This document shows positions 1-33,107 of a DNA stretch of 64,000 bases, piece after piece. How positions within the stretch are numbered: the first letter of the stretch is position 1; the number at the start of each line of letters is the position of its first letter. This stretch comes from Gammaproteobacteria bacterium (lineage in GTDB: Bacteria; Pseudomonadota; Gammaproteobacteria; Pseudomonadales; Azotimanducaceae): the NCBI GenBank assembly GCA_009837185.1, contig VXUA01000014.1, positions 1-64,000 of the forward strand, written 5' to 3'. A program made the position numbers and the translations under genes. The notes beneath the pieces were generated by a model. It was not told the origin of the DNA, made no database searches, and was given only the letters and a program-made list of their open reading frames with translations.

Positions 1-39
1 AGGTACTAACGATTAAATTATCCAACCCATACACGGAAT

Positions 40-2997
40 TTAGGACACACTCGTTCCATATATAAATTGCACTCCCCATACCCCGCGCCAGGAACCATCG
101 CTTCGTTGAGCTTTCCGTAGCCACGACTCGCCTCGAGAAATTGCAAGCTGTGCTTTTTCGTCAACGTCGCTTGGCAACCGTTGCCTACTCAAAGCGAGTG
201 CCGCCATGCACGAGGCCGTGCACTCGACGAACGATTTCTCAGTCATTGATTCGCCAAACATTTCGGCAGGATTCAGCCATTCGAGGCCATACGTCGAGCG
301 TCGTGCTTCATAACTCCCAAATCCTCCATCTTTATTTTGGCTTCGAAGCATGAATTCAATCGACTCTCGGAGCGCTTCATCGTTGAGAGCACTTGGTCGT
401 GTTTCAAGTAGTCCAAGTACGGCTTCCGCGGTGCAATCTGATACGGGCCAGCCGTGCCAACGGCCAGCGAAGCACCAACCGCCGTTTGGGTCGCTCCTGT
501 ACGCGGTTTGAAATCCATCGAAACTCTCGCGTATTTGCTGACTCGCTAAGAATTCGGTACCAAGATCGACCGCATGCTTGACTTCCGTACGGTCTGGTAA
601 TTCCGATAGCGCTTGTAGCGCGAATCCTGTATCCCACGAAGCGCTTCTTGCTCCCGTTATCCGCGTACCCTCGGCATCGTCCTCCCAAATCCAGCCTTCG
701 ATGCGGGCTAACGCCTTTCGACAATTCTCGTCCTCTGGATCTTGTAGCCACAAGGCGAGAATGTTGAGAAAACCACTGACTGGGGAGATGCTCGTGTGAT
801 CCGAATTTTGTAATTCCCAGCGAATCTGCTCGACAAGAGTCTGGACGCACTCGGCTCGGAAACTTTTGCCGTGGATTTTTTCAAAGATTCGTCCCAGTAA
901 AAAACCAAAACGAAGCCGAATCGTAGGTGGTTTAAAGACGTCCTCTTTGCGTAAGCGAGTACGCCCCTTAGCAAACTTGACTCGGTTGAAGTTATCCCCG
1001 AATAGCTCGGTTCGGAGAGCTGTGATCAACGGTGTAACCGGTGCTTGAAATCGACTCGAGTACACAACAGACATCGCCATGTAGATCAGTCGCGTATGGC
1101 AGTACCAGTTCGATGGATGTAGTGGAATCCGACTGGATAGACGCCACATCTCGGGGAGGACGGGGTTCAATCCCTTCCAATCGTAGAGATTCAAAAGAGC
1201 TAGCCAAAATTTACCCCAACTTGGGATTCCTAGTAAGTCTTCAGTTTGAAGAAACTGTCCAGCCTTAGCAATGAGTGGGTCGTCCTTGTCGACACCGAGC
1301 AAGCGTGCAGCAACGTACACGAGCGTAGTAACGAACAGGTATGGGTGCGAGTGTTCATGAAGTCCCCACAATCCGTCTGGTAATCTGGTGTGTTCGAACT
1401 GTCGCAGAACTAGAAGTCTTCGTCGAGGATCGAGCTTTTCGTCTAGTATGAAGCTCAAAATCACGTACTGCGCAGTGAGCATTGGACACCAAGCCATCTC
1501 GCCTTCCCAGCTCCCGTCTGCCCTCTGCATGTCAACGAGACGATCCGTTGCTCGTCGCATCGCGTCTCTTGTACTGCTGGGAGTCATAGAGTCTGCAGTG
1601 TTAGTCTTTCGAGACTCGCGTTCCTGAGGCTGTACAGAAGTCAACAAAGAACGGGACCAACTGGTCCAAAGGCGAGTGTTCTTGTCTAGGGGTGCTTTCG
1701 AAGTTAGTCTTAAATTCCGAATCGCGACCAGCAAGTGTCCAACTCGAGATAGCAATGCTTTAGTTACTTCACGTGCACGACGCCAAGCATCTAAATTGAG
1801 GGACTTCGGTAAAGTACTCGCTATTGCCCTAACCACGATACGAAAAGAAGTGAGTCCCAATCGAGTAAGCGACATGTCTTCGCAGGCTAGGAGTTTCATA
1901 GTCTGACCACGAACCTTGGAGCTTGACCTCCATCGACGGTAAGTTGCCTGTCTGATAGCAACGATTTCAGCTCTGTAGTCGGCGAACGTCTCGTAAAGGC
2001 AAAGAGCCAGTCGTTCAGGCATACGGACTGCTTCTATCCGCTTAGCCGTGAATACGCGAAAATCTGGTTGTGCCGCGAGAGTCAATGCATCACTGAACCC
2101 AAGCGTAAGGCCGATCGCGGTCAAAGGGTGGTAGTGTCCTGCAGCATCTCCAATAAGCACACGGCGAGAAGTCCCGTAGGTAGCCCGAAGCTGTAGTTCG
2201 TTGCCTGCAGCTTGAAACTCGCCGGCCTCAAGTGCTCGAACAAATGCTTCACGGACCGATTCTGGTAATAGATAGGCGTAGGACTCCGTCAGCATCGCAA
2301 CACGATCTCGTGGAGTCCAGTGATCAAGAGGCACGTCGACGATGATTCGAACTGTTTCATCGCCGAGACGGAATATTAGAATGGGACCAGGACCACCGAG
2401 AATCACGTGTCCGTACCCTTCGTGAGGCAGATCAATCCCTTCTGCGACGACGCCAATCATTCGTGAACACGTCAGGCGTTCCGGTGGTAAACCAAGGGAT
2501 TTGCGCACAATGGAGGCGCGGCCGTCCGCGCCAATTACCCTATCTGTTGCGAGTGAATTCTGCGTACCGTCAATCGAGTAAGTGATCCTGCCATTCTCGA
2601 TGTTCTGAACTCTTGCTCCCCGATAAAACTGAACTTGTGAATTATCTTCCATAGCATCATGAAGCGTGGATACCAGTTCAGAATGTTCGCAGGTCATGCC
2701 CAAGGCACCGCTTGAATAAGGAAGAACGATAGGTTCGGAACGATCATCCGGAAAAACCACGAACCCATTGCCTTCGCTGCTATGCGGACATGCATCTAAG
2801 GATATTCCGTTCTCCTGCAACATTCGTACAGCAGGAGGGTGCAGCCACTCCCCTGCTAGGCGACCAGCAGCCTTGGGATTAGCTTCAAGCAGGGCAACTC
2901 GTGCACCTTTTCGAGCATGTGCTAGAGCGCAAAGGCTACCGACGGGTCCCGCACCGACAATGGCAACGTCGTAGCTCGAATTAGTGGAGTCGGTCAA
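40..2997 (-). CDS. squalene epoxidase-oxidosqualene cyclase fusion, C-terminus cut short
   Basis: One continuous frame of 985 residues joins two consecutive steps of sterol synthesis. Residues 1-360 are an FAD monooxygenase like squalene epoxidase: GAGPVGS near 15-21, a DG motif (GADGR, 156-160), and GDAAG followed by HPLT (283-293). Residues 360-470 are a basic, poorly conserved linker. From about 475 it is an oxidosqualene cyclase, with QW-type repeats (MQRADGSW, SQNKDGGFG, AQRSDGSW) and the catalytic DCTAE at 854-858. A methionine at 471 could start a separate cyclase, but I see no ribosome site before it. The start is TTG, 4 bp after the CYP51 stop. The protein ends right after the conserved YGT (980-982), where lanosterol synthases continue about 130 residues. 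The frame holding an ...LNSVYGL stretch is open from there to the window edge, so a frameshift is likely. Epoxidase identity is by motif only; the cyclase call is firm. Confidence 0.85.
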   Translation of the reverse strand: MTDSTNSSYDVAIVGAGPVGSLCALAHARKGARVALLEANPKAAGRLAGEWLHPPAVRMLQENGISLDACPHSSEGNGFVVFPDDRSEPIVLPYSSGALGMTCEHSELVSTLHDAMEDNSQVQFYRGARVQNIENGRITYSIDGTQNSLATDRVIGADGRASIVRKSLGLPPERLTCSRMIGVVAEGIDLPHEGYGHVILGGPGPILIFRLGDETVRIIVDVPLDHWTPRDRVAMLTESYAYLLPESVREAFVRALEAGEFQAAGNELQLRATYGTSRRVLIGDAAGHYHPLTAIGLTLGFSDALTLAAQPDFRVFTAKRIEAVRMPERLALCLYETFADYRAEIVAIRQATYRRWRSSSKVRGQTMKLLACEDMSLTRLGLTSFRIVVRAIASTLPKSLNLDAWRRAREVTKALLSRVGHLLVAIRNLRLTSKAPLDKNTRLWTSWSRSLLTSVQPQERESRKTNTADSMTPSSTRDAMRRATDRLVDMQRADGSWEGEMAWCPMLTAQYVILSFILDEKLDPRRRLLVLRQFEHTRLPDGLWGLHEHSHPYLFVTTLVYVAARLLGVDKDDPLIAKAGQFLQTEDLLGIPSWGKFWLALLNLYDWKGLNPVLPEMWRLSSRIPLHPSNWYCHTRLIYMAMSVVYSSRFQAPVTPLITALRTELFGDNFNRVKFAKGRTRLRKEDVFKPPTIRLRFGFLLGRIFEKIHGKSFRAECVQTLVEQIRWELQNSDHTSISPVSGFLNILALWLQDPEDENCRKALARIEGWIWEDDAEGTRITGARSASWDTGFALQALSELPDRTEVKHAVDLGTEFLASQQIRESFDGFQTAYRSDPNGGWCFAGRWHGWPVSDCTAEAVLGLLETRPSALNDEALRESIEFMLRSQNKDGGFGSYEARRSTYGLEWLNPAEMFGESMTEKSFVECTASCMAALALSRQRLPSDVDEKAQLAISRGESWLRKAQRSDGSWRGVWGVQFIYGTSVS

Positions 2998-3001
2998 TGA
3001 A

Positions 3002-4387
3002 TCAATGAAAAACGGTCGGTTGCGATCTCTTTCGATAACGTAGAAGGCACGGTGCTTTCGGGCCAGTTACCCAACTCCCGTAGTTCGGTGCAGGAAAGGG
3101 CGCGTCAAGCTCAATTTCAAACCGATCTAGCAGCACGTTCCAGATTGCTTTAATTTGCAAGATGGCGAAGTTCTTGCCCATGCACCGGTGCTTACCCCCA
3201 CCAAATCCAATGAGTGCTTGTGTGTCTTCGTTTGTCGGCGAAGTGAATCGATCAGGTCGGAACTGACTTGATTCCGAGAACAATTGCTCAAGTCGATGCG
3301 ACACCGCGGGGGATACAACCGCCATCGTATTTGTCGGCACGACCATATTGCGATACTTCAAGGGTCTCATCACTTTGCGGATGAGCAGTATTAGAGGAGG
3401 ATGCAATCGTTCACACTCGCGCACGGCGTTCTCCAATACTGGCTGCTGTCTAAGACCCTCGAGACTGAGATTACTGTCTTTTTCGTAGATTTCCCCCATT
3501 TCCCGTCTAATTCGATTGAGGTACTTCTCGTCTCTGGCTAACTCTAGACCGGTCCATGTTGCGAGGATTGCACTAGTGTGCTGGCCAGCAAAGAGTGCCG
3601 TCAGCGTAATGCCGGTAATTTCATCGACGGTAAGTTCCCGGCCATCCTTGTAGCGAGCTTTCACAAGCGTCTGCATAAAGCTCTCGGACTCCGTTTCCAC
3701 TGGCTCTTGCTCCGTCAGAACGCGAGTGAATATTTCCGTGATTTTCTTCCTAGCTTGATCACGTCGCCGATGAGAAGGAATGGGGATTCTGGGGAAAAAG
3801 AACCCTATAGTGTTGATGCCGTTCTGAAGTTCGTGATAAGCCTCAGCGAATTCTGCATCCACTTCGCGCCGAATCTCCTCCCCTAGGAAACATCGACTTG
3901 CGATATTCACGGTGAGTTCGTTCATCGCGACAGGCAGATCCAACGTTCCTTCATCGCCCATGTGATCCGCAAAGACTCGCGCCTCGTCATACATGATCGC
4001 CACGTAGCTCCGCATGGCAGACTCTCTAAGAGCAGGAAAAAGAAATCCCAGTTGCTCCGTCATGATTTCCGGCGCGACGTCGTAAGCCACTCCACGTCCA
4101 AAAATCGGTACGGTAAACTGATAGACTGAGTTGGCATCAAGTTGATCGTCCGGTGCTTTGAAGTATGTCTCGTGCGCTTCTAACCCACTGAATAAGACGA
4201 ACTCGGCCGGACCAATCCGAAAGCGAAACAGGTCACCATGCTCCTGACATCCGCGCAAGAGCATTGAAACCGGGTCTCTCTGAAATTCCCTTAAATGACC
4301 AAGGATCGGCCACCCGCCCGAAAGCTCGGGAACTTCGTCACCGTCAAATTGACCGGTGAAATTTGCTTCTTGTAGCTGGTCAACCAT
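3002..4387 (-). CDS. sterol 14-alpha-demethylase, cytochrome P450 CYP51
   Basis: CYP51 oxidatively removes the C-14 methyl group of lanosterol-type sterols in three steps. The 461-residue protein has the CYP51 B-C loop (FGRGVAYD near 96-103), the I-helix AGQHTS (267-272) that is diagnostic of CYP51 (most P450s have AGxDT/ET), ExxR at 324-327, and the haem motif FGGGKHRCMG with the cysteine ligand at 402. There is no clear N-terminal membrane anchor, so it is probably soluble or peripheral, as in Methylococcus. It starts with ATG 8 bp after the C-14 reductase stop, and the epoxidase-cyclase follows after 4 bp, so it belongs to the sterol operon. Redox partners are not encoded in the window. 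Confidence 0.93.
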   Translation of the reverse strand: MVDQLQEANFTGQFDGDEVPELSGGWPILGHLREFQRDPVSMLLRGCQEHGDLFRFRIGPAEFVLFSGLEAHETYFKAPDDQLDANSVYQFTVPIFGRGVAYDVAPEIMTEQLGFLFPALRESAMRSYVAIMYDEARVFADHMGDEGTLDLPVAMNELTVNIASRCFLGEEIRREVDAEFAEAYHELQNGINTIGFFFPRIPIPSHRRRDQARKKITEIFTRVLTEQEPVETESESFMQTLVKARYKDGRELTVDEITGITLTALFAGQHTSAILATWTGLELARDEKYLNRIRREMGEIYEKDSNLSLEGLRQQPVLENAVRECERLHPPLILLIRKVMRPLKYRNMVVPTNTMAVVSPAVSHRLEQLFSESSQFRPDRFTSPTNEDTQALIGFGGGKHRCMGKNFAILQIKAIWNVLLDRFEIELDAPFPAPNYGSWVTGPKAPCLLRYRKRSQPTVFH

Positions 4388-4395
4388 GATGAGTC

Positions 4396-5466
4396 TTAGT
4401 GAACGAAAGGAATCATCGAGAAGCGCGCTCGCTCTACGTATCGATCCCAGAGTTCGCCGTACTTCTTACGACATCGTCGTTCGTCGCGCCACGACCGATG
4501 CCAAAGCAATCCTACTAACCAGACCAGCAACAAATAGGGAATCCAAGACTCGAATCCCACTGTAAGAACAAATGCTAAATAAACGCAAATCTCGCCTGTG
4601 TAGTTGAGATGCCGACCGATGCCCCAAAATCCCGAAACGAGCAATCGTCCGTCCAAAGTCTCGGCTGGACGTCCCCAAATCTTAGTGTTTTCATCCTGTT
4701 TGAAGCGGTGTTTCTGCTCATTAGCCCCTCGGAATAACCAGAAACCGAATACGAACAAAACGCCAAGAATGATCGCAAAGAGCAACGGCAAATCTCCTTT
4801 GGCGTGCACCAATGTCAAGCCAGCGATGCAATAGAAAAACGGAACGAGAACAAAATTTCCCCACACCAACATCCATCCGAATCGTTCGCTCACGATGTCC
4901 CAAGTATGGACCATCCCATACTCAAACTGAAAGTAATTGAATACGTATGCAAAGGTGAAGATCTGATATAGAATCATCGCAAGCGACAGTTCGCCGTAAA
5001 TCTCGTACTGTGCGACAGCGAACGAGACATTGAAAAGCGCAAGTGCGATCAATGACGGACGATAGCTGAAGAACTTCAGGTCCACTCCGAGTATTCCCGG
5101 ATTGAGCTCTCTTCCAAAGAAAAATCCGCGCAGGAATCCCTTTGAAGCATCTGGATCAGGGGAACCTCGCCAATATAACCAACCCGAGAGCGCAAACGCA
5201 AGAACGTTTGCACAAATGAGCAGCGCGATAAAGTGGTTGTACAGAAACGATAACGAAAACCAACCCATCGCCTGGCAGATACCTACTACGAGCGCAGTGG
5301 TGAGAAACAACGCTAGTCCATTCAATTTGAAGATGCGGGGAACACCTCCATCTTGCGCCCGTTCAATTCTTCGCCCTGGAAGTAGTATGGATCCAACAAT
5401 GAGAAAAGCGAGGAAACCGATGACCGCTAACACCGCTTGTAACATTGAACTGCTAGTTAGCTCCAT
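4396..5466 (-). CDS. sterol C-14 reductase (ERG24/ERG4 family)
   Basis: An integral membrane protein of about 355 residues with many hydrophobic segments, belonging to the sterol reductase family that reduces the C14=C15 double bond left by CYP51. The family signature is visible as LLVSGFWGIGRHLNYTGE and, at the C-terminus, HRSWRDERRCRKKYG followed by a YVERARFSMIPF tail; both bind NADPH and sterol in this family. The frame is open 43 codons further upstream, but that part lies inside sdmA and is hydrophilic. The start chosen is ATG at 5466, two bases after the sdmA stop. Position between sdmA and CYP51 fits the pathway. A C-14 rather than C-24 or C-7 reductase is inferred from CYP51 next door. 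Confidence 0.88.
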   Translation of the reverse strand: MELTSSSMLQAVLAVIGFLAFLIVGSILLPGRRIERAQDGGVPRIFKLNGLALFLTTALVVGICQAMGWFSLSFLYNHFIALLICANVLAFALSGWLYWRGSPDPDASKGFLRGFFFGRELNPGILGVDLKFFSYRPSLIALALFNVSFAVAQYEIYGELSLAMILYQIFTFAYVFNYFQFEYGMVHTWDIVSERFGWMLVWGNFVLVPFFYCIAGLTLVHAKGDLPLLFAIILGVLFVFGFWLFRGANEQKHRFKQDENTKIWGRPAETLDGRLLVSGFWGIGRHLNYTGEICVYLAFVLTVGFESWIPYLLLVWLVGLLWHRSWRDERRCRKKYGELWDRYVERARFSMIPFVH

Positions 5467-5468
5467 GA

Positions 5469-6578
5469 CTAGCCTCTGGATCGAACGATTGGTTCTGACT
5501 TCTGTTCTCGCTCTAGGCAATCGCGCCACTTCTGTACAGTGAGCTTCTGGAAAGCAATTACTGCTGGATTCAGTTCCACTAGCGGCGCGTCCCAATGTTG
5601 CTCGTATGCTATCTGCTCCGCTTCGACCGCGAATCGATCCTGATCAAGGAGTGGCCCGATCAGAAAGTGATTTGAAGTCTTCATAACGAATTTCATCGCA
5701 AAGCGCGGAATCCGTAAAGGCAGTAGTGGTATCTTCAGGGATTTGAAGTAGAACAAGAAAAAACATCGAGTGGTCCTTTCATCTATGGGGAGCAAGAACA
5801 ACCAGTGCTTGATCCAATCATCGGTATTGGACCATTGGTAGGGATATTCGTAGCAAAGCTCTATGTGACTGGTATTAATCTTGTCATGTTCGACAAACCG
5901 TCCCGAAATTCGTCCGCGACCGACGTTTGAATCGTAAGCCACGTGAACCCGGTCGTCAATCTTTTCGCATCGCGTCAAATCGGCACCATCAAAGGGTCGA
6001 TAACGTCTATGCAAGTGCGCGTGCGTAAAGTCACTGACATTGTCAATTACCATTGAGTGATGAGCCGACCAGGTGTACGCCAAAGGTACGCAGGTCCATG
6101 GTTTCGGGCTTTCGAGTTCGGGGATGTCCGGAATCTGTTGCTGTTCTGCCAGCTCGGGATCTCCCGGAAACAACCAAATCAAACCGTACCGTACCTTGAC
6201 AGGGTAAGTCTTCAGGGTGAGCTTCGGAAAGCTTCGACCAAATCGATCATGCGGAATTTCAACGCATCGACCACTACCGTCATATTTCCAACCGTGGTAC
6301 GCGCAAACTAGGCGACAATCTTCAACGCTACCTAGTGAAAGCTTTATCTGGCGATGGGCACAGCGATTCTCAACGGCGTGAAACTCACCGTTTTTGGTCC
6401 TAAAGAGTGCGATAGAGTGCTTCCAAAAGACTATTTCTACTACGGACCCTGGTTTGATGCGACGTACTTCCTCGACTGCAAACCAGTAATTCGGGTCCAT
6501 ACCCGAGGCACGCGCCTGTTGGCGTAATCGAGTCGCGTCTTCAAATTTGGGTGGAGGACGATTATTTCCGTTAATCAT
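5469..6578 (-). CDS. Rieske oxygenase for sterol C-4 demethylation (SdmA-like)
   Basis: A 369-residue Rieske non-haem iron oxygenase. The [2Fe-2S] ligands are C73/H75 (CAHR) and C92/H95 (CAYHGW). The mononuclear iron site is the stretch from N180 to H190 (NVSDFTHAHLH), with D183 and histidines 186-190 as ligands. In Methylococcus capsulatus SdmA oxidises one C-4 methyl of lanosterol-type sterols and works with the dehydrogenase SdmB; the neighbouring gene here is SdmB-like and overlaps it by four bases (ATGA). The assignment rests on this pairing and on the surrounding sterol genes, since Rieske oxygenases of other substrates share the same motifs. Its ferredoxin reductase partner is not in the window. 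Confidence 0.85.
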   Translation of the reverse strand: MINGNNRPPPKFEDATRLRQQARASGMDPNYWFAVEEVRRIKPGSVVEIVFWKHSIALFRTKNGEFHAVENRCAHRQIKLSLGSVEDCRLVCAYHGWKYDGSGRCVEIPHDRFGRSFPKLTLKTYPVKVRYGLIWLFPGDPELAEQQQIPDIPELESPKPWTCVPLAYTWSAHHSMVIDNVSDFTHAHLHRRYRPFDGADLTRCEKIDDRVHVAYDSNVGRGRISGRFVEHDKINTSHIELCYEYPYQWSNTDDWIKHWLFLLPIDERTTRCFFLFYFKSLKIPLLPLRIPRFAMKFVMKTSNHFLIGPLLDQDRFAVEAEQIAYEQHWDAPLVELNPAVIAFQKLTVQKWRDCLEREQKSEPIVRSRG

Positions 6579-7675
6579 GGAGTCTGTTTTCCATCCTTGG
6601 TTCGTATTTCATCCGTGGACTCGAGGCTAACTACGGGACGCTTAGCGCGGGGGTTCGTAATGGAACCGCGGGCGTAATGAAATGCATATGCTTCCTGCAC
6701 CGCGTCGCGAATACTCGTTGGTTGATAGCCGAGTTCCTGTTTTGCTCTGTCAATATTAGCGTGTCTTCTCTTTTTGAGTAGACGTATTGCTCCTGGAGTG
6801 AAGCGTTGCTGAAAATTGGGGTGAAAACGGCTCAGATAGAAGCTAGCTACTTCAGAAAAGACATACATTATAGGAGTAGGAATGCGACGGCGTGGTCGAG
6901 GTATACCCGACACCTCCTCGTATAAATCCAAAATATCGGAGATAGTTTTGTACTCTGATGCAAATATGTATTTATGCCCGGTACGACCTTTTTGCATGCA
7001 CAGCACATGTCCTTCGACAATGTCTCGAGCCGCAACAAATGCAAAGCCCCCGTCCACGTACGCGCGGACCTTACCACTGGTGTATTTGCAGAGCGTCGTG
7101 CCTAGTCTTGATGGTAGATAGTCCGCCCCACCTACAACCGCGCAACATGTCGCGATGACGACATCCTGACCGAGAGCGACCGCCTTTAGACATTCATGTT
7201 CTACGAGCACCTTGCTTCGTTCGTAAGGCATAGTTCGTTCCATGGGATAGAACTGCATAGTCTCGTCGCTCGGGGCAGAGGGATCGTCTAGGTCGTATCC
7301 AACTGCACTGAAGGACCCGGTCACAACCACCCTACCCGCATCGGTTTCCCGCGCGGCTTGAAGCACATTACGGGTCCCGAGAACATTGCATTCAAAGATT
7401 TCTCGCTTGTGAGCCAGATTCCCGTCAATCGTTGATATCTTCGCCGCACAATGATAGATCGATTGGCAGCCGGCCATCGCTTGTCGTGTCGAATCGAGGT
7501 CTCGGATATCTCCATAAGTTCGTTCAACGTCAAGTCCTTCCAAAGCCTCGTTTCTGAAGTCGCGTCGCAACAGGACCCGTACACTAGTTCCGTCCCGGAT
7601 GAGCCGACGCACAAGATTTGCGCCCACATGGCCAGATGAACCCGTTACAAGAACGGGTGTTGACGAAGACTCCAC
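6575..7675 (-). CDS. NAD(P)-dependent sterol dehydrogenase/decarboxylase (SdmB-like)
   Basis: An extended short-chain dehydrogenase/3-beta-hydroxysteroid dehydrogenase of 366 residues. The nucleotide-binding TGSSGHVG is at the N-terminus and the catalytic YERSK lies near residues 150-154. In bacteria with partial C-4 demethylation, SdmB oxidises the 3-hydroxyl and releases the C-4 carboxyl made by SdmA as carbon dioxide. It is the first gene of the five-gene sterol operon and overlaps sdmA by four bases. The start is GTG with AGGAG about ten bases upstream. The operon promoter must lie in the AT-rich stretch upstream. A general 3-beta-HSD role is the alternative. Confidence 0.85.
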   Translation of the reverse strand: MESSSTPVLVTGSSGHVGANLVRRLIRDGTSVRVLLRRDFRNEALEGLDVERTYGDIRDLDSTRQAMAGCQSIYHCAAKISTIDGNLAHKREIFECNVLGTRNVLQAARETDAGRVVVTGSFSAVGYDLDDPSAPSDETMQFYPMERTMPYERSKVLVEHECLKAVALGQDVVIATCCAVVGGADYLPSRLGTTLCKYTSGKVRAYVDGGFAFVAARDIVEGHVLCMQKGRTGHKYIFASEYKTISDILDLYEEVSGIPRPRRRIPTPIMYVFSEVASFYLSRFHPNFQQRFTPGAIRLLKKRRHANIDRAKQELGYQPTSIRDAVQEAYAFHYARGSITNPRAKRPVVSLESTDEIRTKDGKQTP

Positions 7676-8319
7676 CTAATCGCAGCTCCTATCCACTCGA
7701 CTCCAGTTTGTTTATCATCGAAATCACTAAGCGTTGGGGACAAGAGATCGATTTAGACTCAATACAAAATCTACTGATGCGATCGTCGTTGAAGAACGTC
7801 TCGTTCTAGTCATTGCTGAACGGTACCGGAATACCCACAACATCCTGATGAATATTCTCTCGGTGCGGCGGTTCGTGAAGATCAACTCGCTAAAACGAAC
7901 TCAGAAGTTCAACACTACTTTAAACATCAACGACGCGAGCTTGTCCATCAAAATTGAATCGTCCCAAAGACGTCTGTCTATCTTCGAAACGTTAGGTTAC
8001 TTCGTCTTCAAGGTTGAGTACACAATTCAAGAACTCAAACTTACCCAACATCGTTTTTTTCAAGACTGCGAATCCAGTAGGCGATTTGGCTATTTTATTC
8101 AAGTGCCGTACTTTCATAACAAGTGCTTAAACTCCGTCACATTTGCTAATTCGAGTGATTGCCATGAACCCAATCGTGAAACAAACCAAGTTATGACACA
8201 ACAGAAAAATTTTTACTTTCGATCCCTAGAATCAATGGAAACCAATCAATCCTAAAACAAACGACATCAAATTTAGTCCAAGTGATAGTGAAAACGCACA
8301 ATTCAACAAGTGAGGTTCT
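7676..8319. other. 644-bp AT-rich divergent intergenic region
   Basis: This separates the sterol operon (minus) from the hydrolase-methyltransferase pair (plus) and should hold both promoters. A 173-codon frame on the plus strand (7734-8255) gives a protein rich in Ser, Asn and Arg with no recognisable motif and no ribosome site, so I do not call it a gene. I found no convincing -35/-10 pair or hairpin. Confidence 0.5.
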
Positions 8320-9117
8320 ATGGGTCGCAAACTGAGACAGTTGGGGCGAGCCTTGGGTAAGCTTTATTTGCTGGTCTGTGCAGTCTTGTGGGGCATCCAA
8401 GGGCTTGTCATATACCGGCCCGTTACAGATGAAGACAGATTACCCGCCCGATCGTCGGTCGAGTATGAGATTGTTGTTGATGAAAAAAGAGGTATCAAGT
8501 CTCGAGGCTACATCGTCAATGAGTCTGCTCCAGGTCCTGTGATTCTCTTTTTCGCCGGCAGAATGGAGGATTCTTTGGGCTATACTCACGCGCTGGATCG
8601 ACTGAAGGTACCTGCCGTACTGCCAAACTATCGCGGGCACGGAAAAAGCGATGGCAGACCGACCGAGAAAACCGCTATCGCCGATGCCGAGATCACTCTT
8701 CAAATGGTGCGAGATCGATTTCCAGATCGTCCTATAGTATTAATGGGCGATAGTCTAGGAAGTGCGGTGGCTATACGAATCGTAGATTCGAACATTGCTG
8801 GCATGATTCTCATTAGCCCCTTTCGTTCCTTGGCGCACGTGGCGAATCGCAGTGTATTGCGAATGGTCCCCCTACGTTTTGTTGTACGACACAAGTATGA
8901 CACTCGAAAGAAACTCGACTCGCTTCCCGACAAAATTTTAGTTATCTACTCGACAACCGACACGATCATATATCCGAGAGAAACAGAACGCGTACTCGAA
9001 AAAATCCCTCAGGCGGAAGTCGTTACCGATGACTCAGAACACTATTTCGTCTTTGGCCGAAACCTGCACAAGATGAAGGATTGGCTGATCGAAAACTTCG
9101 ACGACATAGATTCGTAA
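8320..9117 (+). CDS. membrane-anchored alpha/beta hydrolase, Bem46/ABHD13-like
   Basis: A 265-residue serine hydrolase. A hydrophobic helix at about 10-30 followed by QGLVIYRP resembles the membrane-anchored Bem46/ABHD13 group. The nucleophile elbow is GDSLGS and an HG motif (YRGHGKSDG) precedes it. A late Asp (STTDT) and a His (DDSEHY) complete a plausible triad. The ATG has GAGG five bases upstream. It lies 64 bp before the sterol methyltransferase on the same strand, so the two are probably cotranscribed. A role in hydrolysing sterol or fatty acyl esters is a guess from context only; the substrate cannot be read from the sequence. Confidence 0.8.
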   Translation: MGRKLRQLGRALGKLYLLVCAVLWGIQGLVIYRPVTDEDRLPARSSVEYEIVVDEKRGIKSRGYIVNESAPGPVILFFAGRMEDSLGYTHALDRLKVPAVLPNYRGHGKSDGRPTEKTAIADAEITLQMVRDRFPDRPIVLMGDSLGSAVAIRIVDSNIAGMILISPFRSLAHVANRSVLRMVPLRFVVRHKYDTRKKLDSLPDKILVIYSTTDTIIYPRETERVLEKIPQAEVVTDDSEHYFVFGRNLHKMKDWLIENFDDIDS

Positions 9118-9181
9118 CCACTGAAGAATCCAAATATTTCCTTAGTTTGTTAAATCTAGTCGATTAATTAGTACCAATTCC

Positions 9182-10228
9182 TTGAAACCCTCCGACCTAC
9201 TAAAGCTTCCCAAGAACCTGCGTAAATCGTACGGGGATTTGAACGTTTCAGACAGTGTGAAACGATATGAAAGCTGGCTAGAACGTCGCGAACAAGCCAA
9301 GACACAGGATGACAAGTACGATCACACTGAGACCGTTAGCGAATACTACGATCTGTTTACCGAATTGATGCAATTCGGTTGGAACGAATCCTTGCACTTC
9401 GCTCCTATTGCACCAGATGAGACGTTAGAAGAAGCCATTGTCCGTCATCAAAGACACATGATCAAGAAGTTAGAGCTTCGAGAAGGCATGAACGTCATTG
9501 ATGTAGGATGCGGGTTGGGAGGCCCATTGCGAAGAGTTGCAAAAGAATCAGGTGCAAGAGTACTTGGCATTAATAACAACGAGCAACAACTAGAAAAAGC
9601 CAAACTAAAGACAACTGAGGCAGGACTCGACCACTTAACCGAATATCGCGAATGCAATTTCATGGACATGAGCTCTATTGAAGCTGGTTCTTACGATGCG
9701 GGATACGCGATCGAATCAACTTGCTATGCCCCCGATAAAGAACGTGCTTATGCAGAGATTTTTCGAGTATTGAAACCCGGAGCGTTGTTTTGGGGTCAGG
9801 AGATGTGTCTAACGAACGTTTTTGAGCTCGAAGACGAGCAGCATTGCGCAATCAGAGACGAGATTAAGTTCACTCTCGCTTTGAGCGACATCTTCAAGTT
9901 TGATGAGGTGAACCGCGCATTGGAAACCGTTGGATTTGAGATAGTTGAAGCGGGCGATCAAGAAGTGGAGAATGGTTCTAGTGTGTCTTGGTATCAGCCC
10001 ATGGAGGGTCTCACCTCCTCTCTTCGTTCATGGCTCAGAGTTCCAGGCGGTCGATCCACACTTGCTGGTGGAGTTCGTCTGGCTGAGGTCGTTGGTATGT
10101 TTCCGAAAGACAGTTGGCGTGTCATTGAGCTACTTGACAGACAGGCCGATGCTTATGTCGCTGGTGGTAAGTCGAGCATTTACACGCCGCTGTACTGTTT
10201 CCTTGCGAGAAAGCCAGAGTCCCGATAG
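9182..10228 (+). CDS. sterol C-24 methyltransferase (ERG6/SMT family)
   Basis: A 348-residue SAM-dependent methyltransferase that transfers methyl to C-24 of the sterol side chain. The order of motifs is that of fungal and plant SMTs: YYDLFTELMQFGWNESLHF, then motif I VIDVGCGLGGPLRRVA, GINNNEQQ, YAIESTCYAPD and FRVLKPG. The C-terminal region has the sterol-MT domain pattern, including SSVSWYQPMEG and the ending YTPLYCFLARKP, which nearly matches plant SMT1. This full-length similarity distinguishes it from general small-molecule methyltransferases. The start is TTG without a clear ribosome site; a start further in would remove the conserved YYDL region. Very few bacteria carry this gene, so it suggests C-24-alkylated sterols, which were long treated as eukaryotic. 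Confidence 0.92.
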   Translation: MKPSDLLKLPKNLRKSYGDLNVSDSVKRYESWLERREQAKTQDDKYDHTETVSEYYDLFTELMQFGWNESLHFAPIAPDETLEEAIVRHQRHMIKKLELREGMNVIDVGCGLGGPLRRVAKESGARVLGINNNEQQLEKAKLKTTEAGLDHLTEYRECNFMDMSSIEAGSYDAGYAIESTCYAPDKERAYAEIFRVLKPGALFWGQEMCLTNVFELEDEQHCAIRDEIKFTLALSDIFKFDEVNRALETVGFEIVEAGDQEVENGSSVSWYQPMEGLTSSLRSWLRVPGGRSTLAGGVRLAEVVGMFPKDSWRVIELLDRQADAYVAGGKSSIYTPLYCFLARKPESR

Positions 10229-21001: not shown

Positions 21002-22600
21002 TTATTCCGTGGCTCCAGCGATCTTCAACATACCAATGATGTGTTCATTACCAGATTCCTGTGCTACCTCAAGAATCGAGTTTTCGTCTCGATCATCCGG
21101 CTCGTTCGGGTCTGCCCCTGCTTCTAAAAGTAATCTCACAATTTCAACACGTTCGGACTTCACGGCACGTCGCAAAAAATCAGGTCTCATTCCCTTGTAG
21201 AGCAAGAACTCGACCATGTGAACATGACCGTAATTTACTGGAATGACCAGTTCCCAAGGTCCTCGTTCAATGCCTAGTGTCCACAATACCTCTAAGGCTG
21301 CGTTCAATCCTCGGACGCACGCAATTTTCCCGTACCAACTGAGCGCTGGCTCGTATACGTCAAGTCCCGACTCCGCGAACCGTCGAAAATTGTCGACGTC
21401 CCCATTCTTAAGCGTAAGAACTGCCGGGTCTTCCATATAGCTTCTTCCACGGTAGGTGTTTGGATCCGCACCCGCATCGAAAAATGCTGTGATGATCTTT
21501 GGGTTGTACTTATATCTGTGGTGGGCGTCTAAGATGTCTCCAAATCCAGTGGGTCGAGCACCATCCTCTATCAATCTAACCACGGCTTCATAGTCTCGCA
21601 CTTTCGCTGCGCTATAGAGTCGCCTTGCCAGATGAATGCCTTCATCATCGACTGAAACAGATGTCGCCGCACCATGCTTTATCAGCAGTTTTGCGATCGA
21701 CGCATCGCCAGAATTTAGTAAATCCGTTGCAACTTGTAGCACTGTTGGCCAAAATTGTCTACTCGAGGAATTCTTTTGTAGAGTCACTGCATTTGGTGAG
21801 ACATTGGGATCCGCACCGTTCTCCAATAATAACTCGACTAACTCGCGCGACTGGCTGAGTACTGCATGGTGAAGTGGCGACAGATACTCCATCATGTATC
21901 GTTTTGGAATATCAAATTCGAGGTCGAATCTCTCTAAGTGTCGTCGAGTCAGTTCATTTGGGTCAGCGCCCGCGTCCAATAGTAGTTTAGCGACATCCAC
22001 CTGTCCGTGAAGACTAGCAATTCCTAGCCCCTCAGGTTTCGCTCCGTGTTGCAGAAGCAGCTTAATTGCTTCAGTGTGCCCAGTTCGCGCAGCCTTTTCT
22101 GTACTGAGATCGTCCTCCCCATAACTAAGCAACAAGTTCAACATTTGCAGATTTCCAACTTCGGCTGCTAGAGATGCTCCTTGAGGTTCAACACCGAGAT
22201 TCAACATTTCTTCTAGTATCAGCACGTTTTCGTGTTGAACAGCCAACTGAGTATTCAATCCTGCACCTGCCTCAACCATCAAGCTAGCAATGTCGTCTCT
22301 ACCAAGTTCGAGCGCATAGTCTAGCAAGTAATGACTTAAGAAGTCTTTGGTCGCTCGTGTCGTATCGGACAGATATTCCCGTACTGATTTCGCATCGTCT
22401 CTTTCGATGGCATCATAGAAGTCTGCAGTTGTCCACTCCGGGATTTCAAGTTCTTCAATCGTGTTGCAAGCCTGGACCGAAAGACTGGAAATTGCAACCC
22501 ATCCAATCCAAACCGCTCTTAGAATGTTCGACCTCCGGTCAGTCCCCGGCGCTGTCATGGGATTACGTTCGTGAGTAGCGTCTCGAGTATCTTCGTTCAT
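21002..22600 (-). CDS. exported ankyrin-repeat protein, copy B
   Basis: A 532-residue ankyrin-repeat protein. A hydrophobic export signal (VWIGWVAISSLSVQAC) suggests secretion; the VQAC end resembles a lipobox, though Gln at -2 is unusual. Repeats of the type LLLDAGADPNE and LLLENGADPNVS recur through the chain (for example ahead of the HLERFD segment and at the C-terminus, LLLEAGADPNEPDDRDENSI). It starts 14 bp after the upstream paralogue stops, so the two are one operon. The N-terminal 100 residues match the neighbour almost position for position (WTTADFYDAIERDDAKSV versus WTTEDFYAAIDKDDVKSV). Function and ligand are unknown; a protein-binding surface in the periplasm or outside is likely. 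Confidence 0.75.
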   Translation of the reverse strand: MNEDTRDATHERNPMTAPGTDRRSNILRAVWIGWVAISSLSVQACNTIEELEIPEWTTADFYDAIERDDAKSVREYLSDTTRATKDFLSHYLLDYALELGRDDIASLMVEAGAGLNTQLAVQHENVLILEEMLNLGVEPQGASLAAEVGNLQMLNLLLSYGEDDLSTEKAARTGHTEAIKLLLQHGAKPEGLGIASLHGQVDVAKLLLDAGADPNELTRRHLERFDLEFDIPKRYMMEYLSPLHHAVLSQSRELVELLLENGADPNVSPNAVTLQKNSSSRQFWPTVLQVATDLLNSGDASIAKLLIKHGAATSVSVDDEGIHLARRLYSAAKVRDYEAVVRLIEDGARPTGFGDILDAHHRYKYNPKIITAFFDAGADPNTYRGRSYMEDPAVLTLKNGDVDNFRRFAESGLDVYEPALSWYGKIACVRGLNAALEVLWTLGIERGPWELVIPVNYGHVHMVEFLLYKGMRPDFLRRAVKSERVEIVRLLLEAGADPNEPDDRDENSILEVAQESGNEHIIGMLKIAGATE

Positions 22601-22614
22601 CGAAATCTACCGTA

Positions 22615-24147
22615 CTAATCCTCCGCATCGGCCTGTTCTAGTAAATTCACGATAACTTCGTTATCCAGTTCCATCGCTATTTCAAGGATAGTTCGCTCAT
22701 CGCGTTCCGATGGTTGATTCGGATCCGCACCAGCTTCTAATAGTAACTTCACTTCAAGCTCGCGTCCTCTCCCTACTGCGGTTCGCAACCCCACGGGTCG
22801 AGCTCCCTTAGCAAGCATGGCTTCGACATCGTGAAGAAGGGCGAGATCGAATGGGGCTCGATAGTATTCGTACTGCCGGTCATGACCAATCTTCCAAAGA
22901 ATTTCTATTGCTTCACTTAGTCCCGGGCTATGGGCAATTTTCATGTACCAACCAAACAGAGTCTCACTAATCTCAGCACCCGCTTCAACAAATCGCTTAA
23001 AGTTCTCTATATCTCCGTTCCAAAGCGTTAATGCTGTAGGTGTGTACATAGGACCGCCAGCAAGTAAATCGAAGACGTTAGGGTCAGCACCAGCTTCAAC
23101 GAAGGCTTGTATGATTTTAGGATCGTATCGTTCTGACATCTCGTAGAAGAAACTTCCAAATCCGGTTGGTGTTGCGCCTAATTTCAACAACCGAGCGACC
23201 TCTTCATAGTTCCATGCTTCAGCCGCGTCATAAAGATCCAACACTAACTTCGCGTCCTCATCATCATTTGATACATCTAAGATCGCACCGTTTTTCTTCA
23301 GTATCTGCGTGATAGCCTTGTCTCCCCACTCGGGGTCTTGTGCTGTTTGAAGTACAGTAGGCCAAGCGTCATCGGAAAAACTGTGTTCACGCAATACATT
23401 CGCACTCGGGAATATATTGGGATCTGCTCCTGCTTCTAACAGCGCGTTCACCAAATCTAACGATTTGATAAGGACCGCATAATGTAGAGGGGACAGATAT
23501 TCGAGTGTGTACTCTGATGGAAAGTCGATTTGACGCCAAACGTCTCCACTAAATCGAGTTAACTCGTTGGGATTCGCACCTGAGTCTAAGAGAAGTTGTG
23601 CCACAGCTTTATGTCCGAGAGCGATGGCTGTTACTAACCCAGCTGGTTCCGCGCCATGGTCAAGAAGTAATTTCACCGCATCTAGGTGCCCATTTCGGAC
23701 TGCTCCTTCGGTATTTAGGTCACCCTCTCCATGATCCAACAACATGACCACTAGGTCAGTGTTGCCTCTTTCAGCTGCAAGCGACGCTCCTAAAGGTGGT
23801 ATTCCTCGTTTCAACATCTCTTCAAGTATCGGTACGTTTTCGTACTTAACGGCTGAAAAGGTATCGACTCCAGCTCCGGCTTCGATCATTAGTTGTGCAA
23901 TTTGATTCCTCTCATGTTCGAGAGCATAGTCGAGCAAGTAATAGCTTAGAAATTCTTTTGTGGCACGCTTGGTATCCGATAGATACTCTTGAACAGATTT
24001 CACGTCGTCTTTGTCGATAGCGGCGTAAAAGTCTTCAGTCGTCCATTGGGGTATTTCAAGGTCTAGATTCGTGTCGCTCGCCTGGGGCTGAAGAGTTGTA
24101 GCTGCTATACATGCAAACCCAAGTAAAGCTCGTGATAACGGTCTCAT
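22615..24147 (-). CDS. exported ankyrin-repeat protein, copy A
   Basis: A 510-residue paralogue of the next gene. The ATG at 24147 is chosen because GAGGAGGAG lies just upstream and a clean signal peptide follows (MRPLSRALLGFACIAATT, cleavage near QASD). An in-frame ATG 44 codons earlier lacks both. Ankyrin units such as LLLDHGAEPAG, LLLDSGANPNEL and LLLEAGADPNQPSERDERT are spaced irregularly, suggesting degenerate repeats between clear ones. As first gene of the pair it carries the better ribosome site. Tandem duplication with divergence may give binding to different partners. No enzyme domain is visible. Confidence 0.8.
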   Translation of the reverse strand: MRPLSRALLGFACIAATTLQPQASDTNLDLEIPQWTTEDFYAAIDKDDVKSVQEYLSDTKRATKEFLSYYLLDYALEHERNQIAQLMIEAGAGVDTFSAVKYENVPILEEMLKRGIPPLGASLAAERGNTDLVVMLLDHGEGDLNTEGAVRNGHLDAVKLLLDHGAEPAGLVTAIALGHKAVAQLLLDSGANPNELTRFSGDVWRQIDFPSEYTLEYLSPLHYAVLIKSLDLVNALLEAGADPNIFPSANVLREHSFSDDAWPTVLQTAQDPEWGDKAITQILKKNGAILDVSNDDEDAKLVLDLYDAAEAWNYEEVARLLKLGATPTGFGSFFYEMSERYDPKIIQAFVEAGADPNVFDLLAGGPMYTPTALTLWNGDIENFKRFVEAGAEISETLFGWYMKIAHSPGLSEAIEILWKIGHDRQYEYYRAPFDLALLHDVEAMLAKGARPVGLRTAVGRGRELEVKLLLEAGADPNQPSERDERTILEIAMELDNEVIVNLLEQADAED

Positions 24148-24633
24148 AAAGCTCCTCCTCGTAGCGAAGGCTTTTTTGAAATGCGAGTGTTGAAGAGTTG
24201 CGTTTTGCGCGTGGTTGTTCATAGCGCCGTGATTGATTGCGCTCGTGAATTGCATTTTCTCAAAGAAATCTGAAAACACAGTCTATATAGCTAAATTTCT
24301 GTACGTTTTTGGTTGACCAAAGAACGTATCCAAGAAACCTGCCATGTCCCACAAAGAGTAGATCTATAGTCATTAGATGCACCAAAGCATGTACTAGACA
24401 CTGAAGATGCACCGAACTCCACGAATCGACGATATCGAAGCGAAATCACGACACGTCTGTTTGATTGTACAAGATTGAACAAGTAATGCTCCTTGACTCA
24501 GTGTCCGCAAAAACACAATCCAAAGTGCCCAAAGTAAAAGCGAGTACAAAAAACTAAACCTTTTAAGCGTACGCAGCGGACAATTTTTGTATAAAATATC
24601 CTCTTATATTTAAATACAGATTTTAAATTTAGG
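24148..24633. other. divergent intergenic region
   Basis: 486 bp between the ankyrin operon (minus) and the DUF4143 ATPase (plus). The right 100 bp are very AT-rich (ttttaagc...tataaaatatcctc), suitable for a promoter of the ATPase. I saw no gene or strong repeat. Confidence 0.4.
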
Positions 24634-28482: not shown

Positions 28483-29523
28483 CTAGTCCAGCAGTTGTAG
28501 CATGGATCGATGGATTTCGCGCCAATCCTGAGCAAGATCAATACTTCGGGCTTTAATCGAAAATCCCTCTAACCAAAGATCTACAGACACAGGATCGGAA
28601 ACTGTTGGATATAGCAAAATACCTTCATGCGCTGAATCGGCAGGTCTGGTTGCTTCGCGATTTCGTAAGTAAGCTGTTAGCTGGTAGAGATGTGCTGACT
28701 GCAACTTTTTCGTTTCGTACCATTCACTCAGAGCTTCTAGGTAATACTTAGCGTCCAAAATTATGCGACGATCAGAACCTTCGAGTATAACATCTGCCTC
28801 CATTCCAGGGAGTTTATTCAAGTGTTTTGTCTGCGATCCTTCGTGATTCCATTCAATCTTCCTGGATCGATTAACTTTAAAGTGGTTTTGCTCTCGACGA
28901 TAAAACTCAATCACAAATCGTTCAAACAGTCTCGCCATTCGTTCATCCTGCAGTTCCTTAAACGTATGATGCCCTGTCTCTTCGTCAATCAATAGTTGTT
29001 CATAGATGAGCCGACAAACTGTCAATAACATCCGATAATATCTACGGTTACGATCTAGATGAACCTGATTGAACATTCGAAGACTGAGATTCACAGAGCT
29101 GACACCTGCCAGCTTTCCGTACGCTTGAGTGACGCGCGAACGAATTCTGCCATCTAGTGATGGTAGACGAAGTAAATTCTTGAGGGTCGTACGCAGAATT
29201 CTGTTGTGAAGTATATCGTGAGACAATTCTTGAAATTCACAACACACACGACCTTTGGACCGGAGAGCGCGTTTCATAGTTTCAGATGAGTCTATTTTTC
29301 CGCGAACACCCACAAGATCTTCTCGCTTGTCTAAATATCCTCGATCTAGACCTGCACGTACCAGACGAAAGACTCCTTCCGCAAGCAATAACCCCAATAG
29401 GTCGTGAACTGCCTCGAGCTTATCCAGTTCGGCTAGCCGGAGGAGATCTTTTTCTTCAGCATGCTGCCATGCGTAGCAGAAGAGGTAGTAAACATTGGCA
29501 ATCGGGATCTTCTGTTTATTCAC
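28483..29523 (-). CDS. mcrC: McrC endonuclease subunit of McrBC-type restriction
   Basis: A 346-residue McrC. The N-terminus (KIPIANVYYLFCYAWQH) is the family signature. The PD-(D/E)XK nuclease core is visible as MEADVILEG followed by IILDAKYY. It starts inside the end of mcrB (four-base overlap), so the two are translationally coupled. McrC is recruited by the McrB GTPase ring and cuts DNA containing modified bases. Confidence 0.92.
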   Translation of the reverse strand: MNKQKIPIANVYYLFCYAWQHAEEKDLLRLAELDKLEAVHDLLGLLLAEGVFRLVRAGLDRGYLDKREDLVGVRGKIDSSETMKRALRSKGRVCCEFQELSHDILHNRILRTTLKNLLRLPSLDGRIRSRVTQAYGKLAGVSSVNLSLRMFNQVHLDRNRRYYRMLLTVCRLIYEQLLIDEETGHHTFKELQDERMARLFERFVIEFYRREQNHFKVNRSRKIEWNHEGSQTKHLNKLPGMEADVILEGSDRRIILDAKYYLEALSEWYETKKLQSAHLYQLTAYLRNREATRPADSAHEGILLYPTVSDPVSVDLWLEGFSIKARSIDLAQDWREIHRSMLQLLD

Positions 29524-31911: not shown

Positions 31912-33015
31912 TCATTCCACTACTAATGAATAACTCGTACTACGACCACCAGCCGAATCTCTTTTTAATGCCCCACGTTTGATCAGATCCTGTATATCCC
32001 TAGTTGCCGTATCTTGAGAACATTTAGCTATCTTCGCCCACTTTGAACTGGTTAGCTTTCCTCTAAAATCGTCGAGGAATTTGTTCATTACTTTGATTTG
32101 GCGTGGATTTAACGACTGTTGCGCGAATCGAGTCCAAAAACGAGCCTTTGTTAAGACGGTGTTGAGAATCTCATCGCTCTGATTTATTGCACGTTGTAAA
32201 CAACAGAGAAACCAATTCATCCAACCAGTGATGTCAACGGAACCTCGCTGCGTAATTTCTAGGATGTTGTAGTAATCATTTCGTTCCGCACATATCTGTG
32301 CCGACATGCTATAGTAGCGTTGCATAAATTGTTCTGAACGGGCAAGTGCCAAATCGGTTATCGCTCGAGCAATACGGCCGTTTCCATCTTCGAAAGGATG
32401 TATAGTGATAAACCAAAGATGTGCGAGACCGGCAACGAACAAAGAATGTAAATCTCCGGGATCTTCAAACCATTGCAGAAAAACTGACATTTCTTCTTCA
32501 ATTCGATTTGCTGGTACTGCTTGAAAATGAACTGTTTCCTGACCGATTGGACCTGAAATCACTTGCATCGGACCCTTCCGATCATCTCTCCAACATCCTA
32601 CTTTGAGTGTGTCCGAGTCAACGACACGAGTTGGAAATAGGGCCAAGTGCCAAGTGAATAGTCTTTCTGAACTCAATATCGTATCGTAGTTCTCGGTAGC
32701 ATCGAGCATCATTTCGACTACGCCTTCAACTCTTTCACTAGCTTGGACAATACCGCCTACTTCTAAACCCAGTCTCCTTGCTACAGAGGATCGAACTTCG
32801 GTGTAGTCAAGTGTTACCCCTTCAATCTCGCTAGATTTGATTACGTCTTCCGTTTTGGTGACAAGATGTGCTTCATTGCGTAAATCAATACCCAAAGTCT
32901 CCATTTTGCCTTGTACACGACCTTGTTCATGCGAAATTGATGCAATCAGTCTGTATAGGTAGTGTTCATCCCATGTTAGATGTGGCCACTCCTTATGTTC
33001 CCATAAATATCGCAC
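31912..33015 (-). CDS. Fic-domain protein with N-terminal inhibitory motif and winged helix
   Basis: A protein of about 367 residues. The Fic active site HPFEDGNGRIAR is complete, so AMP or another nucleotide transfer is expected. SSEIEG near 61-66 is the (S/T)xxxE(G/N) inhibitory motif, placed N-terminally (class II). The N-terminus is DUF4172-like (RYLWEHKEWPHLTWDE), and the C-terminus is a winged-helix HTH (SSKWAKIAKCSQDTATRDIQDLI). The GTG at 33015 has GGAG seven bases upstream and starts the conserved domain directly; a GTG at 33030 would lie inside an operator palindrome. The HTH and the operator array upstream suggest autoregulation. Confidence 0.88.
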   Translation of the reverse strand: MRYLWEHKEWPHLTWDEHYLYRLIASISHEQGRVQGKMETLGIDLRNEAHLVTKTEDVIKSSEIEGVTLDYTEVRSSVARRLGLEVGGIVQASERVEGVVEMMLDATENYDTILSSERLFTWHLALFPTRVVDSDTLKVGCWRDDRKGPMQVISGPIGQETVHFQAVPANRIEEEMSVFLQWFEDPGDLHSLFVAGLAHLWFITIHPFEDGNGRIARAITDLALARSEQFMQRYYSMSAQICAERNDYYNILEITQRGSVDITGWMNWFLCCLQRAINQSDEILNTVLTKARFWTRFAQQSLNPRQIKVMNKFLDDFRGKLTSSKWAKIAKCSQDTATRDIQDLIKRGALKRDSAGGRSTSYSLVVE

Positions 33016-33024
33016 TGGTTTTCT

Positions 33025-33107
33025 CCGCACTATATGCGGATATTATACCTATTAATCTCCGCAATATATGCGTAGTTTATCATTAACATTCTCCGCAAAT
33101 TACGTGA
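33025..33107. promoter_or_regulatory. three-site palindromic operator array of fic
   Basis: Three copies of a 15-bp site start at 33025, 33059 and 33093, exactly 34 bp apart. The first is CCGCACTATATGCGG (a perfect CCGCA/TGCGG inverted repeat), the second CCGCAATATATGCGT, and the third degenerates to CCGCAAATTACGTGA. A perfect TATAAT on the minus strand (33047-33042) sits between sites 1 and 2, and site 1 reaches the ribosome site of fic. A regulator bound here would block the promoter. Confidence 0.75.

Follow-up and report, generated by a model that had tools for sequence, protein, structure and literature searches.

Sterol synthesis gene clusters of bacteria have been described from sponge symbionts and other uncultured bacteria. 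In 115 of 537 metagenome-assembled genomes (MAGs) from Ircinia, ERG24, CYP51 and ERG7 form a cluster whose flanks carry SMT1/ERG6 or FDFT1 together with a DFR-type and a hypothetical gene (Kelly 2022, PMC9531527, in the portion of that report drawn on here). Bacterial sterol methyltransferases (SMTs), several of them clustered with sdmA/sdmB, carry out C-24 methylation in vitro; one SMT of Chlamydiae, found in a MAG that lacks other sterol genes, produces 24-isopropyl sterols, and the methods mention fused SMO/OSC homologues (Brown 2023, PMC10070321, likewise from part of the report). Thus the cluster type, bacterial C-24 methylation and the fused SMO/OSC are already published. Described here is a 64,000-nt stretch of a gammaproteobacterial contig whose start carries the near half of a horizontally spreading type of bacterial sterol cluster. 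Ring synthesis seems to have been lost repeatedly in this lineage, with side-chain methylation, probably of acquired sterols, retained; this reading has somewhat better than even confidence. What looks new is the evolutionary aspect, i.e., the repeated absence of ring synthesis together with the keeping of a separate conserved methyltransferase.

The ring cluster and its interrupted cyclase

The window, i.e., the whole stretch that was analysed, represents bases 1-64000 of contig C70 (95,050 bases), and window base 1 is contig base 1. The source draft genome has 2.77 Mb, is 95.3% complete with 0.5% contamination, and the contig is bacterial, as an initial annotation made from the sequence alone had taken it to be. 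The source organism is probably close to MAGs that are seemingly sponge-associated. Codes beginning with G, L and C denote genomes, loci and contigs, respectively, and G000 is the source genome. Comparisons cover 18 genomes of the genus (G000 included) and a sample of 150 genomes of the family; the cyclase search covers 206 genomes.

Five consecutive minus-strand open reading frames (ORFs) fill positions 40-7675 (Table 1). The sterol genes and gene order given by the initial annotation hold, with domain matches far beyond chance, except that epoxidase and cyclase are a single ORF, epoxidase first, in which the cyclase is cut. The genes are near-contiguous, as was also noted, but the listed overlap between ERG24 and SdmA arises only from the first TTG of the ORF and vanishes when ERG24 is read from ATG 5466.

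The fused protein displays the two domains of a squalene epoxidase, FAD_binding_3 (PF01494, 4.7e-26) and SE (PF08491, 1.8e-20), and SQHop_cyclase_N (1.7e-44); the fold of the epoxidase domain of a relative was also examined. The DCTAE catalytic motif is present, but the cyclase domain is not complete. It matches TIGR03463 at positions 2-508 of 634, with 509-634 missing in the window, and the alignment to human lanosterol synthase stops at residue 589 of 732, the counterpart of residues 590-732 being gone. The fusion reads 985 amino acids, the last few inside the element described below, and the intact relative in G113 has about 1159. The window cyclase is incomplete because the contig starts there, with ~52 bases that belong to the end of a repeated element.

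The missing part is found on contig C69 (4865 bases), where TIGR03463 positions 501-634 (the last 134) are matched and where SMT2 lies on the opposite strand beyond the cyclase end. The sequence at the start of C70 recurs at the end of C69; it is a terminal repeat with the core TGTCCTAAATTCCGTGTATGGG. This 22-base core has 11 copies in the genome, of which 8 are exact and 3 have 2 mismatches; the reversed control gave 0. Of the 11 copies, 8 stand at contig ends, as is expected of a multi-copy element that stops the assembler. Adjacent to the core, GAGTG is common to 5 left ends and GGGA to 6 right ends. TATGGA is present on both sides of the element at the cyclase ends and is followed by differing bases. 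A simple frameshift was considered for the stop at window position 40 and rejected, since relatives (G146, G113 and G081) read through the interruption point and C69 and C70 share the repeat terminus at their ends. The cyclase gene is interrupted in the assembly, what interrupts it appears to be a mobile element, and the truncated protein is probably inactive. An IS256-type transposase (PF00872) was sought in the source genome and none was found, the inside of the element being unassembled. IS3-like reading frames were seen by eye beside one diverged copy of the element (C55); their membership in the element is not proved.

A search of the source assembly for a second cyclase found none, nor an uninterrupted copy; thus the genome is probably unable to cyclise oxidosqualene now. 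With its cyclase gene interrupted and the search for a second one negative, the genome does not support the view that this bacterium presently makes its own C-24-alkylated sterols. In the related genome G146, the cyclase half of the fusion (G146:C2; L019/L048/L196) has a one-base shift, a run of G6 having become G5.

The fusion was also considered as a new feature and this was rejected: both halves are in one frame in 79 of 80 named loci, a count that leans to fusions as the query was itself a fusion, and fused SMO/OSC homologues appear in Brown 2023. A standalone cyclase (G156:C114:269324-270841) is present besides a fused one in the same genome.

The other ring genes display the domains p450 (3.5e-54), ERG4_ERG24 (4.1e-68), Rieske (2.4e-22) and Epimerase (2.8e-33). 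The P450 has Methylococcus CYP51 (6mcw, E 5e-110) as its best solved match; chains not named sterol 14-demethylase begin at 1e-27, with the exception of 9wat (1.4e-62), which is named only 'Cytochrome P450'. The heme Cys and ExxR are present, and GQHTS, ECER and GFGGGKHRC, which are taken here as CYP51 motifs, are read in the window protein. The Rieske protein and the reductase have SdmA and SdmB families as their best NCBIfam matches, with 413.2 and 299.7 bits, respectively. These scores are below the equivalog cut-off of 600, and the proteins are therefore named SdmA-like and SdmB-like. ERG24, CYP51 and a truncated ERG7 part are adjacent and on one strand in the window, the arrangement of the Ircinia clusters (CSGs). 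A search of the 18 genus genomes for an ERG2-type C-8 isomerase was negative, where it should be noted that no control genome matched either and that EBP, C-5 desaturase and C-24 reductase were not searched. 'Near-complete', as the pathway had been called, is too strong.

From homology, the ancestral fused protein would have converted squalene to oxidosqualene and then to a protosterol, CYP51 and the ERG24-type reductase would remove the C-14 methyl, the SdmA/SdmB-like pair would remove one or both C-4 methyls, and SMT2 would alkylate the side chain.

Ring genes and methyltransferases across the genus

Cyclase (E <=1e-40), ERG24 (over cut-off) and SdmA (E <=1e-30) were searched across the 18 genus genomes. 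All three occur together in 11 of them and all three are lacking in the other 7, of which four (G097, G133, G151 and G152) have a completeness of at least 90%. SMT genes (E <=1e-30) are found in 17 of 18 and squalene/phytoene synthase in 16 of 18. The SMT1/SMT3 type is carried by five of the seven ring-less genomes. The SMT2 type was not found in G133, G151 and G152; thus in these genomes SMT2 and the ring genes are both missing. An SMT2-labelled gene does persist in G153 (78% complete), another ring-less genome.

In a PheT tree, G000 and ring-less G151 are sisters (99/96), ring-less G133 falls in the same set of five, and G152 is next. In G133 the flanks are joined, and the block from ~130 bp upstream of SMT2 to window position 8019 is missing. 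In G152, alignment is confined to the 73-78 bp that directly precede the hydrolase gene, longer alignments being patchy, and its breakpoint may be different or the sequence may have diverged. The G151 contig ends ~190 bp upstream of the hydrolase gene. A search of the G133, G152 and G151 stretches for ring-gene remnants (E <=1) did not reveal any beyond weak short matches. Ring synthesis is probably decaying in the lineage, with an element in the cyclase here, a one-base shift in a close relative, and the cluster absent elsewhere.

An SMT3-type gene in G133 (G133:C3:44859-45872, L024), a genome without ring genes, has six in-frame stops and looks broken; its dN/dS (the ratio of nonsynonymous to synonymous substitution rates) is raised, at 0.22-0.37.

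SMT1 and the GPP34-P450 protein

The methyltransferase 1.5 kb from the SdmB start was originally read as ERG6-type, and this reading stands as a family assignment. SMT1 displays Sterol_MT_C (PF08498, 5.9e-14, 52.4 bits, cut-off 21.7) after a SAM methyltransferase domain, and it is related to bacterial SMT-family proteins; Sterol_MT_C scores are 71.7 bits for SMT2 and 37.7 bits for SMT3. SMT consensus regions are a sterol-binding YEFGWGxSFHF-like region, GCGxGG, and a YAIEATCHAP-like region. The SMT1 motifs FGWNESLHFAP, DVGCGLGG and YAIESTCYA are similar to these signature regions but not identical.

A tree of 81 bacterial SMT-family sequences, with no other families and no eukaryotes, excludes duplicates in the core and matches with fewer than ~240 aligned residues. 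In it, 30 rows, every one from this bacterial family, make up a group of SMT1 and SMT3 (100/100). The cluster SMTs (SMT2 type) form the other group, 51 rows from several phyla; one G150 row labelled SMT1 by best match sits there. By these sequences SMT1 is a clade apart from SMT2, and the usual cluster SMT is SMT2, here on C69.

The 150 family genomes include 11 from other genera that have SMT1-like genes (56-63% identity), 7 of them represented in the tree. The cyclase search, positive in 18 of 206 genomes, gave no match in any of these 11, one of which is only 64% complete. Stops that seemed to lie inside the SMT1 genes of G156, G124, G007, G063 and G140 were rejected, as the frames are full length and the stops lie at the match edge.

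SMT1 dN/dS is 0.06-0.08 in five comparisons with the window, 0.08 between G133 and G151 (both ring-less) and 0.12 between G113 and G133, ratios that are rough since dS approaches or exceeds 1 in most pairs. Purifying selection on SMT1/SMT3-type genes is indicated by codon comparisons in all three ring-less genomes tested.

Next to SMT1 is a gene with a GPP34 domain fused to a cytochrome P450. It lies <5 kb from SMT1 in 10 of 11 loci for which long flanks were fetched (the window, L019, L021, L029-L032, L203, L204 and L206; absent in L025), and <5 kb from SMT3 in 1 of 6 loci. It is also found <10 kb from a ring cluster in 14 of the 80 named loci, 12 besides G113 and G146, and these include Nitrospirota, Binatota and Alphaproteobacteria. 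The G146 and G113 homologues have an in-frame stop upstream of the GPP34 domain. The heme Cys and ExxR are invariant in 13 GPP34-P450 sequences. The acid-Thr pair, the usual motif of the P450 I-helix, is seemingly absent by eye. A CYP46-type hydroxylase was considered as an assignment; the nearest solved sequence is CYP46A1 (E 5.4e-21), but by fold many P450s tie (P450 part, model pLDDT 71). A search of 72,556 plasmid records gave 262 matches, none covering 80% of the GPP34-P450. A sterol-modifying role is suggested by its neighbours.

SMT1, together with the neighbouring GPP34-P450, is retained under constraint, and SMT1 most likely methylates the side chain of sterols taken up from host or diet, plus any that are home-made. 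Tentatively, the two may form a sterol-salvage module of this family, whereby foreign sterols would be taken up by bacteria that either abandoned ring synthesis or never possessed it, alkylated in the side chain, and oxidised by a membrane-tethered P450.

An AcrB-type RND transporter gene is next to SMT1 in other genera (L029, 6182-9391; L031, 10659-13862), and in L029 it lies between SMT1 and GPP34-P450. In G113 and G146, another RND/MFP pair lies past the SMT2 end of the ring cluster. These transporters may function in lipid export or uptake.

Other features of the window, outside the sterol genes, include two tandem ankyrin-type proteins (21002-24279, minus strand; ~50% identical, domain scan of one). 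Sponge symbionts have been reported to carry eukaryotic-like proteins as a trait (PMC9531527, in the portion drawn on). A McrBC-type restriction pair (AAA NTPase and McrC-like protein; 28483-31745, minus strand) is adjoined by a Fic protein (31912-33030).

Table 1. Features at the sterol end of the window
Feature	Positions	Strand	Basis or remark
Insertion-element end (terminal repeat core 26-47, common GAGTG 48-52)	1..52	-	cuts cyclase gene
Squalene epoxidase fused to oxidosqualene cyclase, cyclase truncated	40..2997	-	profile matches
CYP51-like sterol 14-alpha-demethylase	3002..4387	-	domain scan and solved-chain search
ERG24-type sterol reductase, likely start ATG 5466	4396..5466	-	PF01222, 4.1e-68
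SdmA-like Rieske oxygenase	5469..6578	-	NF052579, 413 bits, below cut-off 600
SdmB-like NAD(P)-dependent reductase	6575..7675	-	NF052578, 300 bits, below cut-off 600
Sequence continuing in cluster-less relative G133	8019..8330	+	92-94% identity to G133 from 8019 on
Alpha/beta hydrolase	8320..9117	+	domain scan; adjoins SMT1 also in G146, G113, G133, G151, G152
SMT1, sterol C-24 methyltransferase family protein	9182..10228	+	domain, motifs, tree
GPP34 domain fused to cytochrome P450	10293..12329	-	ORF open to 12479

Alternative readings and known systems

The ring cluster may instead have been inserted or exchanged beside SMT1, its absence in G133, G151 and G152 then being original. This is unlikely, given that G151 and G133 branch among cluster-bearing genomes and that the fused-cyclase tree follows PheT for the main groups in the genus (FastTree; 94 loci entered, 89 past the motif filter and 81 after removal of identical sequences, L196 not entered; a G130 row from another genus lies inside). 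It does find support in the branching of G152 outside, in the horizontal spread reported for sponge symbionts (PMC9531527, same portion), and in the GC content of the ring part, 0.507, the window from base 8001 onward having 0.464. An insertion duplication would also account for the 6-bp TACACA found where the G133 flanks join. In addition, ring-gene dS among G000, G146 and G113 is 0.14-0.39 (0.52 in one short segment) and mostly below PheT dS (0.38-0.50), which would fit exchange between strains. The G133 junction alone does not decide, and repeated loss is the simpler reading.

It is rather doubtful that C-24-alkylated, C-4-demethylated sterols are still made de novo, with the interruption partial in the population or an effect of assembly. 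The other ring genes are all open and still constrained (dN/dS 0.06-0.18, G000 versus G113), as is the cyclase C-terminus on C69 (0.07 versus G113, 124 codons), and fusions are intact in G113, G081 and other relatives, with whole clusters still intact in other genus genomes. Given the constraint on the remaining ring genes, the interruption is probably recent and may be polymorphic. However C69 and C70 end in the same repeated terminus, a terminus situated mostly at contig ends, and the assembly holds no uninterrupted copy that the search could find. Moreover, an exact 8-base repeat, CTACGAAA, flanks the end pair C78/C47 (C47 being a two-mismatch copy), as a real transposing element would leave.

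A third possibility, that SMT1 is a paralogue acting on another lipid or isoprenoid and is near the ring cluster by accident, is judged improbable. An SMT1-type gene stands beside a ring cluster in only 2 of the 80 named loci (G113 and G146), besides the window, and the type occurs in genomes without a cyclase match. The best solved match of SMT1 by sequence is 3bus ('Methyltransferase', E 2.3e-23), which is not an SMT and which we take to be RebM; the sterol methyltransferase chain 6f5z, a short construct, gives only 1.4e-8. The Sterol_MT_C score above the curated cut-off and the SMT-like motifs speak otherwise, as does the neighbouring GPP34-P450 with relatives flanking ring clusters in other phyla.

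Chimerism of the contig or bin, with C69 or the ring part from another organism, would agree with the higher GC of the ring cluster but is hardly credible, as the ring proteins are 92-98% identical to their G146 and G113 counterparts and the gene order of C69 plus C70 is that found on single contigs in G113 (475 kb) and G146 (152 kb), namely MFP-RND-(AAA gene in G113, small ORF in G146)-SMT2-fusion-CYP51-ERG24-SdmA-SdmB-hydrolase-SMT1-GPP34-P450.

Repeated loss of ring synthesis with retention of side-chain methylation is thus the preferred reading. The constraint on the ring genes, their low dS, the intact fusions in relatives, the 3bus match and the roughness of the SMT1 ratios weigh against it, and so do three further points. 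The right-hand copy of the repeated target bases has 3 differences from relatives. The source is a draft MAG in which the element is inferred from its ends, its inside being unassembled, and an uninterrupted allele may coexist. The G146 shift could be due to a sequencing error or else represent a second lesion of independent origin.

Genome-based identification of bacterial sources of 24-alkyl steranes relies on clusters of cyclase plus SMT. In the present case, a genome that looks like a near-complete producer on quick reading has an interrupted cyclase, and relatives keep SMTs without ring genes. If SMT1 acts on acquired sterols, side-chain alkylation in sponges could join host rings and bacterial methylation. 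If the salvage module is real, bacterial 24-alkyl sterols could come from cyclase-less genomes, and the cyclase would be no marker of bacterial sterane sources. The GPP34-P450, as a recurring neighbour, may be a sterol-modifying enzyme that has yet to be studied. In the open PMC literature, by title and start of abstract, nothing was found on an insertion-broken sterol cyclase of a symbiont or on a GPP34-P450 sterol protein.

In comparison with known systems, the window proteins differ from human squalene epoxidase and lanosterol synthase (6c6n, 1w6k) in being one bacterial polypeptide, of which the cyclase half ends at human residue 589. The Rieske oxygenase and NAD(P)-dependent reductase resemble the C-4 demethylation systems of Methylococcus and Calothrix/Enhygromyxa (PMC10202945, from part of the paper), but both are under the NCBIfam equivalog cut-offs. 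Compared by description, the SMTs are like those of uncultured bacteria and sponge symbionts that lie beside sdmA/sdmB and other sterol genes (PMC10070321, same part as above). Bacterial C-24 methylation is not new, that activity having been shown in vitro in 2023 in the same study. Also close are the Ircinia CSGs, as the portion of that report drawn on describes them (PMC9531527). The ERG24-CYP51-ERG7 order is shared, the upstream same-strand DFR-type and hypothetical genes fit SdmB and SdmA, and their opposite-strand SMT1/ERG6 or FDFT1 at the 3′ end has its counterpart in SMT2 on C69. Unlike those clusters, the one described here has a cyclase interrupted by an insertion element and an extra SMT1 with GPP34-P450 on its other side, and it is absent in close relatives.

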